Source: Ruegeria sp. THAF33
GTDB taxonomy: Bacteria; Pseudomonadota; Alphaproteobacteria; Rhodobacterales; Rhodobacteraceae
NCBI RefSeq assembly: GCF_009363615.1
Contig: NZ_CP045384.1
Span: 2,788,501-2,852,500 of the forward strand
DNA: 64,000 nt
Direction: 5' to 3'
Under the pieces are notes generated by a model that saw only the letters and a program-made list of their open reading frames with translations, was not told the DNA's origin and searched no databases. Shown piece after piece: positions 24,556 through 64,000 of this stretch. The translations under genes were made by a program, and so were the position numbers. The number at the start of each line of letters is the position of its first letter. Within the stretch, counting starts at the first letter, position 1.

Positions 24556-24562
24556 CTGAGTC

Positions 24563-24656
24563 GAGAGGTTGGCGCGGGCGAGCGCCTCGCCAACCTGGTC
24601 AGGTCCGGAAGGAAGCAGCCACAACGAGCCCCGCTTGGGTCGATGTCCAACCTCTC
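24563..24656 (+). ncRNA. ffs: Signal recognition particle RNA (4.5S, small bacterial type)
   Basis: The ends pair as GAGAGGTTGG (24563-24572) and CCAACCTCTC (24647-24656), closing one long hairpin. The conserved domain IV loop is present: GGTCAGGTCCGGAAGGAAGC near the middle. This is the RNA that binds Ffh for co-translational membrane targeting. A clear promoter precedes it. Confidence 0.97.
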
Positions 24657-24818
24657 ACTTTACGAACCTTAGCCGCAGGAGGGCTTTATGATTGTAGCAA
24701 AGACCCTTCGGGCAGCACGGTTCTGACCTCACGGTATCGACTGACTGCCTGAACACATGACCCGGGGATGAGCGATCGCCATCCGTCGGGAGTGCTGTTT
24801 CTGACGACAGGCAAACCA

Positions 24819-26741: not shown

Positions 26742-26887
26742 GATCTCTGGCTTTGCGCTTGGTAAATCCGGTTTCAGAACCTCAACGCCCTCGACACTAT
26801 GCATGAACCAACATCGTATCCAGCATGACCAAGCGTCCGGTCAAAAGATCGGCTTGACTCGATGCGTGCTCAAACGCTAGCGGTTGT

Positions 26888-27084
26888 GTGATGGTTTCCG
26901 GCCTCCACAAGGGGTCGGGATGAAAAGGGAACACGGTGCGGTAATGTCTGGTCATGCAGGCAACATCCAAATCCGCGACTGCCCCCGCAACTGTAAGCGG
27001 TAAGCGATGCCGAAACACCACTGGCCCCGAAGGCTGGGAAGGTTGGCAAAGCGATGACCCGCAAGTCAGGAGACCTGCCATCGG
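26888..27084 (+). promoter_or_regulatory. Cobalamin (adenosylcobalamin) riboswitch
   Basis: The plus strand carries the conserved cobalamin aptamer blocks in order: AGGGAACACGGTGCGG, a CCGCGACTGCCCCCGCAACT core followed by GTAAGCGG, a CACTGG arm, and the closing AGTCAGGAGACCTGCC. This is the B12-box architecture. The controlled gene starts at 27188, about 100 bases downstream, leaving room for an expression platform. Low cobalamin is expected to permit expression. Confidence 0.93.
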
Positions 27085-27187
27085 AAACGAAACCAAAACT
27101 CGGGCGGGGTGTCCGGGCAGGTCCTGACGGCATCACGATGTCCCACCTGTCCAAAATATCCTGTCCACCAAGCGCGGAGGGCGCAGG

Positions 27188-55363: not shown

Positions 55364-56074
55364 ATGCCTCGTTCACTGGCTGCCGATCAGATTTTGCGGG
55401 TTCCGTTGCTTCCGGTGCTTGCCGCGCAGGGCCTATCGGTACGCAGGAACGCGCAGTTGCTGCCGGAACCGACTGGCCCGCGCGAAGGCCGCTCAGGGCG
55501 CGGGCCGCGTCTGCGGCTTCTGATCACCGGTGACAGTTCGGCAGCCGGAGTGGGCGCCGGCACGCAGGATCAGGCGTTATCCGGCCATCTGGTCAACCGT
55601 CTGGCCGGGCACTATGCGGTCGAATGGCAGCTGGAAGCGACAACCGGGCACACCACCCAGGACACGATTGACCGTCTTTCGCAAATCGAGGGCGAGTTCG
55701 ATGCTGTCGTTACGGCACTCGGAGTCAATGATGTCACCCGGGCTGTGACACGCCAGCAATTTGCGCGCCGCCAGACCCGCCTTATCCGCTTGCTTTCAGA
55801 AAACCTAGGGGCTCGTCGCATCGTCGTAACCGCAGTCCCACAGATGAACAGGTTTCCGGCCCTGCCTCAGCCGCTGGCCTGGGTGCTTGGATGCCAGGCC
55901 GCGCGCCTGGATCAGGGGTTGCAAGAGGTTGCGGCTGCATTTTCGCATGTTCAACACCTGCCACTCGACCTGCCGGACGACCCGGCGTTGGCTGCACCGG
56001 ATGGCTATCATCCCAGCCCCCGGGCGTATGCGCTTTGGGCGGATGCAGCCGCGCGCCTGTTGCTTCAGGCCTGA
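55364..56074 (+). CDS. SGNH/GDSL-family hydrolase
   Basis: A 236-residue esterase or lipase-like enzyme with the SGNH blocks: GDSS (nucleophile serine 58), a glycine in TTGHTTQD, GVND, and DGYHPS carrying the Asp-x2-His pair. There is no clear cleavable signal peptide. Substrate unknown. It overlaps the convergent rarD-like gene by ten bases. Confidence 0.88.
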   Translation: MPRSLAADQILRVPLLPVLAAQGLSVRRNAQLLPEPTGPREGRSGRGPRLRLLITGDSSAAGVGAGTQDQALSGHLVNRLAGHYAVEWQLEATTGHTTQDTIDRLSQIEGEFDAVVTALGVNDVTRAVTRQQFARRQTRLIRLLSENLGARRIVVTAVPQMNRFPALPQPLAWVLGCQAARLDQGLQEVAAAFSHVQHLPLDLPDDPALAAPDGYHPSPRAYALWADAAARLLLQA

Positions 56075-56970
56075 CCGCGCGCCTGCCGGATCATAGGGAT
56101 CGAGTAAACGACCAGAGCCGCCCAGATCAGTGGGAATGCGATCATCCGGCCCGTGTCAATCTTTTCGCCGAACAGGGTTATCGCGGTAATGAAAATCATG
56201 GTCGGCGCGATGTATTGCAGGATGCCCATCGTGGACAGGCGCACCAGTTTGGCGCCGTTTGCATAGACCAGCAATGGCACCGCCGTTACTACCCCTGCAC
56301 AGGACAACAACAAGGTGTCCGACATCGCGACACCGAAATGACCAGTGCCCCGCACACCCAGAATGGTGACATAGACCAGTGCCGGAATCAAAAGGATCAG
56401 GACCTCAAGCAGGAAACCCTGGTTCGGCCCAATCGGCAGCGAGCGCTTGAAGAACGCGTAGAATCCCCAACTGATCATCAACCCAAGAGCCGCCCAAGGC
56501 AAACGACCGGCTTCCACCACAAGTACCACCACACCCAGCGCGGCCAATCCGACCGCGAACAATTGTGTCCGTGTCAGGGGTTCTCTCAACAGGATTGCCC
56601 CCAGCGCGATACTGAATAGGGGGTTGATGTAATAACCCAACGCCGCATCCAGTGCGTTGCCCGTGGAAATGGCCCGTACGTAAATCGCCCAGTTCACGGA
56701 AATAAGCGCTGCTGTCAAAGCGGCCATACCCAACATCTTCGGATTGCCAAGCGCGGCCTTCAGATCCCGGGTTCGGCCCAGGACAACCAGCAACAACCCG
56801 GCCACAGGCACTGACCAGATAACACGGTGCGCCACAACCTCGACCGCGCCCATATGATCCAGCGCTTTCATGTACAGAGGCAAGAACCCCCACAGGACAT
56901 AGGCCGTGACTGCCAGCGCAAGCCCCTTTGGTGTGTCCGTGTTCTGTGAAGGTAGAAGCGTGTCTGCCAC
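56065..56970 (-). CDS. rarD: RarD-type EamA transporter
   Basis: A 301-residue inner-membrane protein with ten predicted spans. The N-terminal GLALAVTAYVLWGFLPLYMK pattern and the EVVAHRVIWSVP segment are characteristic of RarD (originally tied to chloramphenicol sensitivity), distinguishing it from the other EamA protein at 48321. The substrate is unknown. Confidence 0.9.
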   Translation of the reverse strand: MADTLLPSQNTDTPKGLALAVTAYVLWGFLPLYMKALDHMGAVEVVAHRVIWSVPVAGLLLVVLGRTRDLKAALGNPKMLGMAALTAALISVNWAIYVRAISTGNALDAALGYYINPLFSIALGAILLREPLTRTQLFAVGLAALGVVVLVVEAGRLPWAALGLMISWGFYAFFKRSLPIGPNQGFLLEVLILLIPALVYVTILGVRGTGHFGVAMSDTLLLSCAGVVTAVPLLVYANGAKLVRLSTMGILQYIAPTMIFITAITLFGEKIDTGRMIAFPLIWAALVVYSIPMIRQARGQA

Positions 56971-57232: not shown

Positions 57233-59686
57233 TCACACCTTCACCCGTTCGGATTTCGGGTCATACATCGGCTTGAGCGACGCCTCGGCCCGAACTTTCG
57301 TGCCACACACGTCGATTTCGTAGGTCGAGGCCAGAACGTCTGCGGCCTTCTCCCCCTCGCACGGCACGTAACCCAAGCCAATCGCACCTCCCAGCGTGTG
57401 GCCATAGTTGCCCGAGCTGAGATAGCCCACATACTCGCCATCGCGGATGATCGGTTCATTGTGGAACAGCAGCGGCTCGGGATCGGTCAGGCGGAACTGC
57501 ACAAGGCGCGATTTCGGGCCGCTTTCCTTGCGCGCAATCACCGCCTCGCGGCCGATGAAGTCGCAGCCCTTGTCCACCTTGACGGCAAAGCCCAGCCCGG
57601 CGTCCACCACGTGATCTTCGCAGGTGATGTCATGGCCGAAATGGCGGAAGCCCTTTTCGATCCGGCAGCTGTCCATCATGTGCATGCCGCACAGCTTCAG
57701 CCCCATGTTCTGCCCCGCCTCGTGCAGCGTTTCAAAGACGTGGCCCGCCATGTCGGATGAGACGTAGATCTCCCAGCCCAGCTCACCCACATAGGTGACG
57801 CGGTGGGCGCGGGCGAGGCCCATGCCGATCTCGATTTCCTGCGCGGTGCCGAAGGGGTTTGCCGCGTTCGAGAAGTCGTTGGGCGAGACTTTCTCCAGCA
57901 AGGCCCGCGCATTCGGACCCATCACCGCCAAAACGCCTTCACCCGCCGTGACGTCGGTGATGACCACGTTGAAATTGCCCGCATGGCGCATCATCCAGGT
58001 CTGGTCCGCCAGGCGCGTCGCCGCCGGGGTGACCACCAGATAGGCGGTCTCGGAAAGGCGGGTGACGGTGACATCTGCCTCGATCCCGCCGGAACGGTTC
58101 AGAAACTGCGTGTAGACGATCTTGCCATTGGGCACGGCATAGTCGCCGCCACCGACATAGTTCATGAACTTCTCGGCATCGGGGCCCTCGACCCGGATCT
58201 TGCCGAACGAGGACATGTCGTACATGCCCACGTTTTCGCGCACAGCGCGGTGTTCGGCGGCCGAGTTCTCGAACCAGTTCTGACGCTTCCAACTGTAGTT
58301 GTATTCGCGTTCCTGCCCTTCGTTGGCGAACCAATTGGCGCGCTCCCACCCGGCCAGTTCACCGAACACGGCACCGTGTTCATTCAGGTGGTGGTGGAAT
58401 GGCGTCCGGCGCACGCCGCGCGCGGTGGCTTTCTGGCGATAGGGGTAGTGGTCGGCATAGAGCAGGCCCAGCGTCTCCTTGGACCGTTCGAAAAGATACT
58501 GCTTGTTGCCCTGGAAGGGCTGCATCCGGCTGATGTCCACATCGCCCAGGTCAAAGGGTTTTTCGCCTGTGTCCATCCATTCGGCCAGCGCCATGCCCGC
58601 GCCGCCCGCCGACTGGATCCCGATCGAGTTGAAGCCGGCGGCGACCCAGACATTGTCCATCTCGGGCGCGAGCCCAAGGTGATAGGCGTCGTCGGGCGTG
58701 AAGGACTCAGGGCCGTTGAAGAAGGTGTGGATGCCCGCCTCGGCCAGCATCGGCATGCGGTTGCAGGCGGCTTCGAGGATCGGTTCGAAATGGTCGAAAT
58801 CCTCGGGCAGCTGGTCGAACTCGAAGCTGTCGGGAATGCCGTCCATCGCCCAGGGCTTGGCGTTGGGCTCGAAGGCGCCCAGCAGGATTTTCCCGGCGTC
58901 CTCCTTGTAATAGGCGCATTCATCCGGCACCCGCAGCACCGGCAGCTGCGTCAGGCCGTCGATGTTCTCGGTCACGATGTAGAAATGTTCGCAGGCGTGC
59001 AGCGGGATGTTTACGCCCGCCATTCGGCCAACTTCGTGCCCCCACATGCCGGCGCAGTTGACCACCATGTCACACTCGATATGGCCCGAGGCGCTGCCGT
59101 CATCGGCCACCCAGTCCACGCCGGTCACGCTGCGGCCCTGTTTGACGATATCGGTGACCTTTACCCGTTCCTTGACGATGGCGCCGCGCTGGCGGGCGCC
59201 CTTGGCCAGAGCCAGCGCGATGTTGGCCGGATCACCCTGCCCGTCCAGCGGCAGATAAACTGCACCCTTGACGCCCTCGAGATTGATATGCGGATACAGT
59301 TCCTGCACGCGCTCATTCGAGATTTCTTCGACCTCGACGCCAAACGCCCGCGCCATCGCAGTCTGACGATAGATTTCCTCTTTGCGTTCCTCGGTCAGCG
59401 CCACGGTGATCGACCCGCAGCGCTTGAAGCCCGTGGCGACACCGGTTTCCTCTTCGAGTGAGCCATACAGCTCCTGACTGTACTTCGCCAGCTTGGTCAT
59501 GTTTGCGGTGGCGCGCAGCTGTGCGATCAGACCCGCTGCATGCCAGGTGGTGCCACTTGTCAGCTGCTTTCGTTCAAGCAACACGACGTCTTTCCAACCC
59601 TTCTTGGTCAAATGATAAGCGACCGAGCATCCGATGACGCCACCGCCGATGATGACCGCTCGGGCCTTGCTGGGAAGATCAACCAT
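57233..59686 (-). CDS. Dimethylglycine/sarcosine dehydrogenase-type flavoprotein (DAO-GcvT fusion)
   Basis: An 817-residue fusion. The N-terminal FAD-dependent DAO domain has [16 protein letters not shown] (GxGxxG, about 10-24) and the flavin-attachment region TTWHAAGL with histidine near residue 48; an FAO_M-like middle domain follows. The C-terminal half is a folate-binding GcvT/aminomethyltransferase domain (about 430-800). This layout demethylates N-methyl amines such as dimethylglycine or sarcosine and passes formaldehyde to tetrahydrofolate. It is the last gene of the operon, with extreme GC at third positions suggesting strong expression. Confidence 0.92.
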
Positions 59687-59775
59687 CCTGAAATCTCCGC
59701 TGTGTCAGGTTTGGCATAGGTTGCCACGGAAGATCGACAACAAATGCACCAAAAGCGTCACGAAATCCGCAGTTT

Positions 59776-60753
59776 TCACCGATGTGATGCCGCTCGCTTT
59801 TGCCGACGTACGACAAAGGGCGTGACCCCGAAGAAGCTTTTGTAAACAGACGAAAACCCGTTCGGAAAACCACAGGCCAAACCAATTTCGCGTACGCTCA
59901 TCGTGGTGTTCAGCAACAGGTTATTTGCCTTGGCCAGTCGCATTTCCCGGTAGAATCCGTTGGGAGTGGTTCCAAAAAAGGTTTTGAACTTACGCTCGAG
60001 GGACCGGTTCGACAGGTGCAGCGATTCGACGATCTGATTGATCGGCAGGGGGTCTTCGATATTGGCCTGCATAAGCTTTATGCACTGATCCAGCTTCGAA
60101 TCGCCTGTCGCAGTCAATTTGGCGCCCGAGAATGGCTGCATCGAAGCGAAATCGCGGATGTTCTCATGCAGCATGATGTCGGCCACGGTCATCTTCGCAG
60201 GCCCCGAGATATGGCGCCCGATCACCGCCAAGGCGATATCCGTCGTGGCCTCCATCCCGGCACATGTCACAACCGCGCCCTGTTCGGTTGCGATCGACAG
60301 TTTGGCTTCGAACCGGGCGCCGCGTTCCCGCAGGAACGATGCGTTTTCCCAATGGGTTGCCAGGTCGGCCGTTCCCTGCTCGTCGATATAGCGGCTGGCG
60401 GCTTCGGCCAGCAGGAACACCTTGGCGTCCCGGAAGGTATAGTCCGACACCACCCGCCCCAACGACAAATCCGGATGGTCCGGGTCTGAATTGCCGATTA
60501 CGAACAGGTAATCCGCCCTTGGCTGTGACGGCACCGCTTCTGTTTGAACCACGGCGTCACTGCTGCTGGCAATCGGGCCACCTTTGAGCGAGCGATAGGT
60601 GAAGGTGAACGGAGGGCTTGGGCATACGCGGTTGGCCAGTCTCAACACCTCAACCAACGACGCCAGCTCCAACAGCACGAAACCCGGCGCGACAAGGATG
60701 TCGAAATGCCGGATGGCCTGTTTTGGAGCGTCCGAAGTAGATTTTGCCGCCAT
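59776..60753 (-). CDS. GlxA/GbdR-type AraC-family regulator
   Basis: A 325-residue regulator with an N-terminal DJ-1/PfpI-like domain (about 10-190) and a C-terminal AraC double helix-turn-helix (LHLSNRSLERKFKTFFGTTP then the VREIGLACGFPNGFSSVYKSFFG signature). Close relatives such as GbdR and CdhR control glycine betaine, dimethylglycine and carnitine use. The ATG at 60753 lies five bases after the upstream gene's stop. Being inside the operon, it is probably autoregulated. Confidence 0.92.
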   Translation of the reverse strand: MAAKSTSDAPKQAIRHFDILVAPGFVLLELASLVEVLRLANRVCPSPPFTFTYRSLKGGPIASSSDAVVQTEAVPSQPRADYLFVIGNSDPDHPDLSLGRVVSDYTFRDAKVFLLAEAASRYIDEQGTADLATHWENASFLRERGARFEAKLSIATEQGAVVTCAGMEATTDIALAVIGRHISGPAKMTVADIMLHENIRDFASMQPFSGAKLTATGDSKLDQCIKLMQANIEDPLPINQIVESLHLSNRSLERKFKTFFGTTPNGFYREMRLAKANNLLLNTTMSVREIGLACGFPNGFSSVYKSFFGVTPFVVRRQKRAASHR

Positions 60754-60758
60754 TTTCT

Positions 60759-61652
60759 TCAAACGATGTTATGACCGGCGGCCCGCAACCGGTTCGCCAG
60801 TTCTTCGATATGATCCGGCCCGATTTCGCAGCATCCGCCAACAATCGTTGCCCCCTGATCTATCCACCGCATCACCTGATCCGCATAAGCCCTGGGGCCA
60901 AGGTCATGACGTTCTTGCAGGGCATCCACGGTCGGCGCATCCTGAAGGAAATCATCCGAAATATGCGTGAAGCCATTGGCGTAGGCCCCAAAGGGCCGAT
61001 TCATGCCGGACAGAACTTCCAGCGCCGCCGGGATCGCCTCGGGGCGCGAACAATTGATCAACACGGCATCGGGCGAAAACTCCTCCACCAACGGAGCAAT
61101 GTCCGCCAACGGTTCGCCGGACCTGAGAAGGCTGCCATCGTCATCATTGACTGACAGGGACAGCCAAACCGGTTTTCCGCATCCGACCGTGCCACGCAAT
61201 GCGCCCTCGGCTTCCTGTACCGACGACGCGGTCTCGATCAAAAACAGATCGACCCGCGCGGCCATCATGGCCACAAGTTCGGCGAACTTTTCAGCCGCAT
61301 CCGCAGGGTCCGGGTTAAGGTCGGGGCGATATGAAGCGAGCAATGGCCCCAGTGCACCCGCAATCCGCCCCCCGGTTGCCGCGCGGGCACGTTCGGCCTG
61401 TGTCAGGGCGGTGTCGATCAGGGTAGGCATATGATCCTCCATCCCCACCCGCACCAGACGAGAGCGATGGACGGCATAAGTATTGGTTGTCGCGACCGTC
61501 GCACCCCGGCTGAAATAGTCGCGGTGCACTTCCGCGACCAAATCGGGGTGATCGATCATCACGCGCGTCGACCACAGCGGTGTCGCCTGATCGCCACTGC
61601 GTTTTACCAGTTCCTGCCCGATAGAGCCGTCCAAAAGGGTGATATCTGCCAT
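60759..61652 (-). CDS. Homocysteine S-methyltransferase (betaine-homocysteine methyltransferase type)
   Basis: A 297-residue zinc-dependent methyltransferase of the BHMT/MmuM family. Zinc ligands are visible as INCSRPEA (Cys201) and GGCCEIGP (Cys274, Cys275), and LLDGSIGQEL is the conserved N-terminus. It would transfer a methyl group from a betaine or sulfonium donor to homocysteine, making methionine and a demethylated product for the adjacent dehydrogenases. The donor cannot be told from sequence. Confidence 0.9.
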   Translation of the reverse strand: MADITLLDGSIGQELVKRSGDQATPLWSTRVMIDHPDLVAEVHRDYFSRGATVATTNTYAVHRSRLVRVGMEDHMPTLIDTALTQAERARAATGGRIAGALGPLLASYRPDLNPDPADAAEKFAELVAMMAARVDLFLIETASSVQEAEGALRGTVGCGKPVWLSLSVNDDDGSLLRSGEPLADIAPLVEEFSPDAVLINCSRPEAIPAALEVLSGMNRPFGAYANGFTHISDDFLQDAPTVDALQERHDLGPRAYADQVMRWIDQGATIVGGCCEIGPDHIEELANRLRAAGHNIV

Positions 61653-61663
61653 GTCGTTACTCC

Positions 61664-62716
61664 TCAGGGCACCAATACCAGTTTTCCCGGAAGGGTCTTC
61701 GATTGAAAGTCAGCCTGTGCAATACCAATATCCTTCAACGGATAGGTCCGGGAAACCAGTGGCTTGATCCGTCCGGTATTCACCAGTTCAACAAGACGGT
61801 CAAAGACTTCGGGCGCCTGGTGCGTGCACCCATGTATGGTGATGTCGCGCAGATATATGTCCCGCAGATCAGCTTCGACAATCGGGCCTGCTATTGCCCC
61901 CGAAACGGCATAGTGCCCGCCGGATTTCAGGGAAAGGATCAGCGATGGCCAGGCCGGGCCACCCACAACGTCGATCACCACATCGAACATATCCTGCGGA
62001 AGCGGGTCGTTCCGGTCAAACGTATTCTCGGCCCCCTGGGATTTCACGATCTCGGCTTTCGTGCCCGCTGTTACAGCCCAAACCGACGCCCCGCGCAGGG
62101 CGGCCAGTTGCACCGCCGCCAACCCGACGCCACCCGAGGCGCCGGTGATCAGCACCTTGTGCCCGGCCGTCACGCCTGCGCGGGTCAGCAGGTTCTCCGC
62201 CGTCCCGAAGGCGCAAGGAATGGCGGCGATTTCCACATCCGAAAGGGGCGAGGCGCTGACGTCATAGAGATCATCGGCTTCAACCAGACAATACTGCGCA
62301 AAAGCCCCGTCGATTTCGGAACCCAGCGCAATGAAGCCCTGCGGGTTTCCCGGGCGCGGGCGCGGCAGGTTTATCGGACAGGTCACGCGCTGACCCGGTT
62401 TGAAGGCAACACCCGGCCCAACCTGTTCCACGATGCCGCAAAGATCTCCGCCCTGAATGCGGGGAAAGTGCAATGCACCGCCCCAACCGCCCGCTTCGAC
62501 CTTCTGATCAACGGCATCCGTCGCGCCGGTGACGTCCGAGGAATACCAACCGACCCGTGTGTTGATATCCGTGTTGTTCACGCCTGCGGCGGCGACCCGA
62601 ACCAGAACTTGCCCTGCCCCGGGTTCAGGAACCGGGATATCATCTCGCCATTCCAGAACTTCGGGGCCACCGTGGCCCGTCAGATAGACACCGGACATCG
62701 TCTTTGGAGCATTCAT
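61664..62716 (-). CDS. Medium-chain alcohol dehydrogenase/quinone reductase family protein
   Basis: A 350-residue MDR protein. The nucleotide-binding motif is LITGASGGVGLAAVQ (A-x2-G-x2-G), and the catalytic-zinc cysteine/histidine set of alcohol dehydrogenases is not obvious, so it may be a zinc-free reductase. It lies 11 bases upstream of the methyltransferase gene and 12 bases downstream of the cupin gene. The substrate is probably an intermediate of the same pathway. Confidence 0.88.
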   Translation of the reverse strand: MNAPKTMSGVYLTGHGGPEVLEWRDDIPVPEPGAGQVLVRVAAAGVNNTDINTRVGWYSSDVTGATDAVDQKVEAGGWGGALHFPRIQGGDLCGIVEQVGPGVAFKPGQRVTCPINLPRPRPGNPQGFIALGSEIDGAFAQYCLVEADDLYDVSASPLSDVEIAAIPCAFGTAENLLTRAGVTAGHKVLITGASGGVGLAAVQLAALRGASVWAVTAGTKAEIVKSQGAENTFDRNDPLPQDMFDVVIDVVGGPAWPSLILSLKSGGHYAVSGAIAGPIVEADLRDIYLRDITIHGCTHQAPEVFDRLVELVNTGRIKPLVSRTYPLKDIGIAQADFQSKTLPGKLVLVP

Positions 62717-62728
62717 TTCGCTGGCTTC

Positions 62729-63205
62729 TCAGGTCTGGTCGGCGGGATGGGGCGGAACCGGTCCCATCGGCACGATGTCATATCGGGCATTCAGGTCGGC
62801 CATCTTGGCCTCGTCCTCGAAATCCGCCGGGGTCATGGTTGCCAGTTCCGCAAGGAAACCATCAAACCCGGATGGTTGAAAGATCATGAGCATCCGTGCC
62901 GGTTTGTTGTCGGCAACCCGGCAGGCATGCGGCACACCCGCCGGAACATGCATGGTGGTGCCCGGCGTGCACAGGTGCCAGTCTCCGTCGACATAGAAAT
63001 CCACGGCGCCCTCGAGAAAATAGAAAGTCTCGGCGTGGCTGTCGTGGCGATGAAGGCCAAGCGCGAAGCTGGCCTTCAAGTTGTCTTCCATCAGTGTGTA
63101 GGCTCCGCCCGTGTCCTGACCGGAAACTTTCACGAAGGTATGGTCGTTTTCCCAGTCATAGTTGGGACCTTCACCAGGTCCCATCTTGGAATATCGCGGG
63201 CGCAT
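62729..63205 (-). CDS. Small cupin-domain protein
   Basis: A 158-residue single-cupin protein. Motif 1 is HRHDSHAETFYFLEG (His52, His54, His57, Glu59) and motif 2 is GTTMHVPAGVPHACR (His93), so a 2-His-Glu-His metal site is complete. AAAAAGGAGGCCCGC precedes the ATG at 63205. Cupins of this size include DMSP lyases and dioxygenases as well as binding proteins; sequence alone does not decide. It is 16 bases from the next upstream gene. Confidence 0.88.
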   Translation of the reverse strand: MRPRYSKMGPGEGPNYDWENDHTFVKVSGQDTGGAYTLMEDNLKASFALGLHRHDSHAETFYFLEGAVDFYVDGDWHLCTPGTTMHVPAGVPHACRVADNKPARMLMIFQPSGFDGFLAELATMTPADFEDEAKMADLNARYDIVPMGPVPPHPADQT

Positions 63206-63221
63206 GCGGGCCTCCTTTTTG

Positions 63222-64000
63222 TCAGGCGCGCAGCCGCTCATTTGCGGGATCCCACAGCGGCTGATCCTCCTGTACCACGGCGCGACACTTTTCGCCGTAG
63301 ATTTCCACCTCGAGCTCGGTGCCCGGGTTGGCCAGATCGGCCTTGATCATGCCCAACGCGACGGACTTGCCGACACGATAGCCCCATGCGCCCGAAGTGG
63401 TCTCGCCCACGATCTGATCGCCCTGCCAGATGCAGGACATGTAAGGCGCATCGCAGTCACCGGCCTCGACGACCAGCGTAACGAAAGACTTCTTCACTCC
63501 ACGCTGCTTTTCGGCCAGCAACGCGGCCTTGCCCGGGAAGTCCTGCGGCTTGTCGAACTTGATGAAGCGCTCCAGCCCACCTTCCAGCAGCGAGTAGTCG
63601 GTGCTCAGATCGCCCTTCCACGCGCGGTATCCCTTTTCGATGCGCAGGCTGTTCAGCGCATACATGCCAAACGGCTTGGCCCCGGCGGCAAGGATCGCGT
63701 CATAGATCGCGGGCATGTGCTCGTTGAGCGCATGCACCTCCCAGCCCAGTTCGCCGGCGAAGGACACGCGGATCAGGTGGGCGGGCTGTCCGGCCACGGT
63801 GGCCGCCTGATGGGTCAGCCAGCCCAGCGAGAGGTCGGCATCGGTCAAGCCCGACAGGATCTCGCGCGATTTCGGCCCGGTCACGATCAGCGTGTCGCGG
63901 GTGGTGGTCACGTCCTCGACGGTGACGCCCGCGGGCATCGCGTTCATCAGGATGTCGCGGTCGTGCCATTGCGCGGTGGCGGCGGTGATCATCACGAAAT
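63222..64000 (-). CDS. Second dimethylglycine/sarcosine dehydrogenase-type protein (partial, 5' part beyond window)
   Basis: About 259 C-terminal residues of a GcvT/aminomethyltransferase domain, including FAGELGWEVHAL, the ALNSLRIEKGYRAWKGDL segment (shared with the paralogue at 57233) and a GCV_T_C barrel. The upstream part, likely a FAD-binding DAO domain, lies right of the window, so it could also be a stand-alone GcvT-like demethylase such as a DmdA relative. It heads the visible operon with short gaps to the genes that follow. Confidence 0.85.
   Translation of the reverse strand, partial: FVMITAATAQWHDRDILMNAMPAGVTVEDVTTTRDTLIVTGPKSREILSGLTDADLSLGWLTHQAATVAGQPAHLIRVSFAGELGWEVHALNEHMPAIYDAILAAGAKPFGMYALNSLRIEKGYRAWKGDLSTDYSLLEGGLERFIKFDKPQDFPGKAALLAEKQRGVKKSFVTLVVEAGDCDAPYMSCIWQGDQIVGETTSGAWGYRVGKSVALGMIKADLANPGTELEVEIYGEKCRAVVQEDQPLWDPANERLRA

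Follow-up and report, generated by a model that had tools for sequence, protein, structure and literature searches.

A probable Ruegeria copy of the roseobacter dimethylglycine/sarcosine demethylation cluster, with a proposed role in glycine betaine catabolism

The closest described relative of the cluster examined here was reported in 2011 from Roseobacter litoralis OCh149, in which genes for a dimethylglycine (DMG) dehydrogenase (DMGDH4, RLO149_c039110), a protein with a homocysteine methyltransferase domain (c039100) and a sarcosine dehydrogenase (SARDH, c039090) are co-located under successive locus tags; glycine betaine was the proposed substrate, and c039100 was put forward as a new class of betaine-homocysteine methyltransferase (BHMT) (PMC3141670). 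In Ruegeria pomeroyi, SPO3400 and SPO3396 are assigned as DMG dehydrogenase and sarcosine dehydrogenase (PMC4744692), and SPO3398 appears elsewhere as a homocysteine S-methyltransferase (PMC4809877). The first demethylation of glycine betaine in R. pomeroyi needs MtgC and MtgD, and proteins predicted for the DMG and sarcosine steps, whose locus tags are absent from the text, are more abundant on glycine betaine, choline and carnitine (PMC12478193). Here we analyse six minus-strand genes in the last 6.8 kb of a 64,000-nucleotide stretch of the Ruegeria sp. THAF33 genome (contig NZ_CP045384.1, G000:C1:2788501-2852500; hereafter the window). Judged from its sequence, this locus is most likely the Ruegeria copy of the roseobacter operon for demethylation of DMG and sarcosine, acting in the catabolism of glycine betaine and, with it, of choline and carnitine.

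All six genes are open frames at the positions given in Table 1, and we refer to them as DMG1, CUP (cupin), MDR (medium-chain reductase), HMT (homocysteine S-methyltransferase family), ARAC (regulator) and DMG2. They are separated by 16, 12, 11, 5 and 89 bases when the cupin is started at 63205 and the regulator at 60753. An earlier note, made from the letters alone, had read them as a six-gene operon with gaps of 5-16 bases, and 89 before the last gene, holding two DAO-GcvT-type dehydrogenases, a complete-site cupin, a zinc-free-looking reductase, a homocysteine S-methyltransferase and a GlxA/GbdR-type regulator. The packing is as described, and Pfam matches together with an alignment of the full DMG1 frame bear out the families; the extent of the operon is not as described. 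Its first gene has 815 codons and crosses the end of the window at 64000, and on the parent contig GFA, LysE and XRE-cupin genes lie upstream on the same strand. The operon therefore likely comprises nine genes, in the order XRE-LysE-GFA-DMG1-CUP-MDR-HMT-ARAC-DMG2. Transcription units are not established by our scans, because sigma-70-like promoter sites (0, with 3.1 expected) and terminator-like sites (8, with 10.9 expected) did not exceed chance.

A profile search returned a DMG1 ortholog from all 54 congeneric genomes, including that of THAF33, with scores of no less than 1709 bits; no other match in these genomes exceeds 751.9 bits. XRE, DMG1, HMT and DMG2 are each present at all 53 other congeneric loci, ARAC at 52, GFA at 50, LysE and MDR at 49 and CUP at 30. 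All nine genes occur in the order of the window at 27 of the 53, which is beyond chance, and the DMGDH-like, HMT-like and SARDH-like genes (the last so called by position) keep their order at all 53. We also scanned genome contigs more widely and analysed the best 80 of 564 named loci, using a custom open-reading-frame picker whose gene calls may contain errors; for this set and the congeneric loci alike, a gene was counted as present in tblastn when at least 50% of the query was covered. Because the sequence is truncated near DMG1 in 12 of these 80 loci, the true numbers may be higher than those counted: at least 80 for DMG1, 71 for XRE, 68 for DMG2, 64 for GFA, 55 for HMT, 49 for LysE, 46 for ARAC, 34 for MDR and 11 for CUP. 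The LysE count is 53 under looser settings, some of the matches being a second, distant LysE (24-32% identity), and HMT is seen in 48 of the 68 loci that have room on both sides of DMG1. DMG1 and DMG2 are thus constant, as are HMT and the XRE regulator inside the genus, whereas the cupin and MDR vary. Genome G082 carries a related operon with three consecutive GFA-type genes (L017:6098-7280, plus strand) where the present locus has one.

The locus in another R. pomeroyi strain, SZCCDBG043 (L068), links this arrangement to the published one. It reads XRE-GFA-DMG1-MDR-HMT-ARAC-DMG2 with no other called gene between, and since DMG1-MDR-HMT-ARAC-DMG2 are five successive called genes, SPO3400 to SPO3396 of R. 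pomeroyi DSS-3 fit gene by gene, the named genes falling at positions 1, 3 and 5. The cupin of the window has no match in the L068 locus. The R. litoralis cluster has the same three genes, likened here by gene description rather than by sequence, and no accessory genes are named in the account of it that we consulted. The suggestion of an undescribed catabolic system, made in the earlier note, finds no support in these comparisons: the cluster is published in R. litoralis, the R. pomeroyi tags run in the same order, and three of the six genes match, in order, known glycine betaine enzymes. For MDR, the cupin and the regulator, we found no published assignment in the literature consulted on the R. 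litoralis and R. pomeroyi cluster.

DMG1 is, by sequence, most likely a dimethylglycine dehydrogenase. Residues 5-814 align end to end with the mammalian mitochondrial enzyme DMGDH (575.6 bits with 4pab; 5l46 is a further structure), compared with 290.8 bits for the dimethylglycine oxidase (DMGO) of Arthrobacter (1pj5). The two share the covalent-flavin motif; they differ in that the mammalian enzyme has no operon and the DMG1 substrate is predicted. The part of DMG1 inside the window matches Pfam GCV_T and GCV_T_C, and the whole of DMG2 matches DAO, FAO_M, GCV_T and GCV_T_C. DMG2 aligns to DMGDH chains over residues 6-781, less one-sidedly (476.8 bits for DMGDH and 429.1 for DMGO), and the 11 solved chains found by its search did not include a sarcosine dehydrogenase; it is probably a sarcosine dehydrogenase by analogy, following SPO3396 and c039090 in position. 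The flavin-linking His motif is GSTWHAAG in DMG1 and GTTWHAAG in DMG2. Alignment to the solved chains shows that both keep the amine-site His and Tyr, which we take to be H225 and Y259 in DMGO numbering. The folate-site acid (position 552 of 1pj5) is Asp in DMG2 and Glu in DMG1, as in the mammalian enzyme, and Ala in 3gsi. The genome encodes 13 DMGDH-type proteins, DMG1 and DMG2 included, and 8 of the 11 other paralogs carry the flavin-motif pattern, so that this motif does not fix the substrate; more generally, these active-site residues are common to much of the family and do not determine the substrate.

The substrates are suggested by families, gene order and linkage. In 7 of the best 80 named loci a gene of the MttB superfamily lies near DMG1, either downstream of it (L063, L096, L108, L112 and L114) or divergently upstream (L089 and L091). 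The THAF33 genome has seven MttB-superfamily genes, and all seven of the linked genes are closest to the same one, C1:1608253 (66-80% identity); none is closest to any of the other six. C1:1608253 precedes an mtgC-like gene by about 27 kb; this mtgC-like gene is the 22nd called gene after it, has B12-binding domains, scores 199.8 bits with the MtgC model (cut-off 370) and is followed by a Hint gene and a DUF1638 gene. In R. pomeroyi, the MtgB2 induced by glycine betaine is SPO2134, with mtgC at SPO2160 and the DUF1638 gene at SPO2162 (PMC12478193), and C1:1608253 is probably this MtgB2, by position and family rather than by a sequence comparison with SPO2134. The run of genes in L112 that contains the MttB-type gene also has genes whose best matches are the betaine-aldehyde dehydrogenase and choline dehydrogenase models, under the cut-offs. 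Elsewhere in the THAF33 genome, three DMGDH/MttB sets are adjacent or one gene apart (C1:579235/581652, C1:2070497/2073129 and C2:128582-134705), which suggests several parallel demethylation routes.

According to the pathway that we favour, the corrinoid system MtgBCD, encoded outside the operon, would account for most of the removal of the first methyl group from glycine betaine. This system, with MtgE (PMC12478193), would supply dimethylglycine; the THAF33 genome has the mtgC-like gene and, outside the operon, a probable MtgE gene of a subfamily different from that of HMT. The next two steps, from dimethylglycine to sarcosine and from there to glycine, would fall to DMG1 and DMG2 respectively, with tetrahydrofolate as acceptor of the methyl carbon in the GcvT domain of each enzyme, and HMT would convert homocysteine to methionine. 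The GbdR-like and XRE-cupin genes are presumably regulatory, possible roles are the capture of stray formaldehyde for GFA and the export of an amino acid product for LysE, and the cupin and MDR would be accessory. What the sequence shows directly is the genes, their order and conservation, their family matches and the conserved catalytic residues; from these, the substrates, the sequence of steps, the regulation and the accessory roles are inferred. The earlier proposal of stepwise betaine demethylation through folate-linked dehydrogenases thus holds as the best-supported logic, the first methyl group being the part that would mainly be handled elsewhere, via MtgBCD.

Several points weigh against this assignment. 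R. litoralis grew on glycine betaine and did not grow on DMG (PMC3141670). According to a genome comparison, Rhodobacteraceae, including R. pomeroyi DSS-3, degrade glycine betaine through bhmt1, dgcA and soxBDAG (PMC7574528), in which case DMG2 is not needed as the sarcosine dehydrogenase; in our searches, two weaker hit pairs look like soxA and soxB, as judged from frame length alone. With 13 DMGDH-type genes in the genome, DMG could be handled elsewhere. Among the 68 named loci whose sequence extends far enough to either side of DMG1, 62 show no MttB-type gene, so the linkage belongs to a minority of loci, and the MtgB2 identity comes from position and family only. The mapping of the DSS-3 tags rests on papers plus another strain. 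Finally, the textbook route does not include HMT, MDR or the cupin.

HMT is the most constant of these three, and it carries the first alternative, namely that it transfers the first methyl group of glycine betaine to homocysteine itself, as a new BHMT class, so that the operon alone would lead from glycine betaine to glycine. Its place between the two dehydrogenases at all 53 congeneric loci fits such a role, as does the conservation of the three Cys of the zinc site, and the same role was proposed for R. litoralis c039100, the only assignment that our literature search for this HMT returned in the sources consulted (PMC3141670). HMT is moreover seen in none of the seven loci with an MtgB2-type gene near DMG1 and in 55 of the other 73 among the best 80 (L089, whose sequence ends 148 bases past DMG1, is uninformative on this point). 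Bmt of Phaeobacter inhibens, a related roseobacter enzyme, uses betaine and dimethylsulfoniopropionate (DMSP) in vitro, so direct transfer from betaine to homocysteine is possible in principle (PMC12366255); that enzyme is a product of the split-methionine-synthase gene, whose THAF33 counterpart is 28.5% identical to HMT. This counterpart, the second THAF33 gene of the same Pfam family, scores 604.5 bits with the BHMT model and is probably MtgE by analogy with published work (PMC12478193). HMT itself scores 57.6 bits with the BHMT model (PRK07534, cut-off 338) and 139.1 bits with MmuM (PRK09485, cut-off 215), the best of the five families listed; both scores are under the cut-offs, which places it outside BHMT and MmuM by curated limits. 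The fit to characterised families called for in the earlier note therefore gives MmuM as the nearest and membership in neither.

In R. pomeroyi, loss of mtgC abolishes both growth on glycine betaine and its consumption, also when methionine is supplied (PMC12478193), although SPO3398 is listed for that strain; HMT therefore does not suffice there for betaine demethylation. The SPO tags given in the main text of that paper do not include SPO3398. A wide search with HMT (5766 of 8000 candidates) had only homocysteine methyltransferase names among the 120 matches listed. Of 590 records of plasmid relatives none reaches 60% identity, and at four plasmid loci (three at 54-55% and one at 39%) no DMGDH-type gene is annotated, so these relatives are uninformative on the substrate. 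On balance we hold HMT as the first betaine demethylase to be a minor candidate beside the favoured route through MtgBCD. A related and equally tentative proposal is that HMT is a corrinoid-independent methyltransferase of a subfamily apart from BHMT, MmuM and MtgE, moving a methyl group from a pathway compound (glycine betaine, or whichever betaine is at hand when MtgBCD is saturated) directly to homocysteine, with MDR handling a by-product of demethylation.

The second alternative is that the operon serves another methylated substrate, a sulfonium compound or a different betaine, with the cupin and MDR as substrate-specific enzymes. Both stand outside the textbook glycine betaine route, as the earlier note had recognised, and the large DMGDH family of the genome leaves room for other substrates. 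The cupin has the complete 3-His/1-Glu set (H64, H66, E71 and H105, counted along the 170-residue frame), and these residues do not vary among the six proteins aligned, its own included; its longest frame begins at 63241, and the start at 63205 better matches the aligned relatives. An even sampling of the family (198 genomes, THAF33 included) yields cupin relatives at E<=1e-20 in 7 genomes, THAF33 among them; of the six others, two carry it inside this operon (L016 and L017) and four have no other operon genes nearby. The gene contexts of these four show no agreement: sulfatase, SDR, GST and aldehyde dehydrogenase genes in L018, DAO and disulphide-oxidoreductase genes in L019, an ABC transporter in L020, where the cupin frame contains a stop, and a hydroxyacid dehydrogenase in L021. 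At E<=1e-15 there are 464 relatives, with only cupin names among the 120 matches listed.

Inspection by eye shows GGDLCG in MDR at the place of GHEYCG in another THAF33 gene, of the ADH family, and the description of MDR as zinc-free-looking is a fair one. Members of the MDR subfamily accompany DMGDH-type genes in this operon, in L112/L114 and, as a third setting, in a cluster elsewhere in the THAF33 genome (L131:3963-12320, in the G000:C1:135515 region). In that cluster the gene after the DMGDH-type gene encodes an MDR with 47% identity to that of the operon, and a Rieske oxygenase and two enolase-superfamily genes lie nearby. The L131 cluster may serve a cyclic betaine such as hydroxyproline betaine. 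The recurrence suggests that MDR is a general partner of DMGDH-type demethylases rather than a substrate-specific enzyme. CUP is missing at 23 and MDR at 4 of the 53 congeneric loci, whereas DMG1 and DMG2 are constant, and both the MtgB2-type linkage and the published assignment indicate glycine betaine. A different substrate accordingly appears improbable, and the two genes are better seen as accessory to a glycine betaine operon than as pointers to another compound. The regulator is AraC-type with GbdR as its best named family (NF052371, 133.5 bits, cut-off 480), in line with its first description.

A third alternative, that the locus is the homarine pathway, can be given hardly any weight. 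A conserved operon homABCDER has reportedly been described in marine bacteria, and homarine goes to N-methylglutamate and glutamate. Mgd takes part in that pathway according to a passage citing the work, whereas the genes here are DMGDH-type; our literature search on the pathway gave no gene list for comparison with homABCDER.

Table 1 Features of the operon and of the rest of the window; positions marked w-e are window-equivalent positions on the parent contig.
Feature	Position	Strand	Assignment or basis
XRE-cupin regulator	66693-67373 (w-e)	-	Upstream of LysE
LysE gene	66070-66696 (w-e)	-	Upstream of GFA
GFA gene	65685-66065 (w-e)	-	Upstream of DMG1
DMG1, 3' part of first DAO-GCV_T dehydrogenase	63222..64000 (whole gene 63222-65669, w-e)	-	815 aa; most likely dimethylglycine dehydrogenase
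CUP, cupin with complete 3-His/1-Glu site	62729..63205	-	Predicted accessory; Pfam Cupin_2, residue alignment
MDR, quinone-oxidoreductase-like medium-chain reductase without the usual zinc motif	61664..62716	-	Predicted accessory; Pfam ADH_N, ADH_zinc_N
HMT, homocysteine S-methyltransferase-family protein	60759..61652	-	Pfam S-methyl_trans; three zinc-site Cys conserved
ARAC, AraC/GlxA-type regulator	59776..60753	-	Closest named family GbdR, score under cut-off
DMG2, second DAO-FAO_M-GCV_T dehydrogenase	57233..59686	-	817 aa; probably sarcosine dehydrogenase
EamA-type transporter gene	56065-56970	-	Downstream of the operon, same strand
Cobalamin riboswitch	26875-27096	+	RF00174, 127.3 bits
Bacterial small SRP RNA	24562-24660	+	RF00169, 56.8 bits

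Relatives of the EamA-type gene (64-92% identity, all 42 in one cluster) lie on the strand of DMG1 in 42 of the best 80 named loci.

The gene cluster is thus already known from relatives, and the observation of it in this genome is sound. Glycine betaine is a major marine osmolyte and the genus carries these genes as a core trait, so that naming them correctly helps marker-gene work. The live question is the constant HMT, since the papers, in the parts consulted, disagree on direct methyl transfer between betaine and homocysteine in roseobacters (PMC12478193 and PMC12366255). If HMT does carry out such a transfer by a corrinoid-independent route, it would give roseobacters a second route from an osmolyte to methionine.

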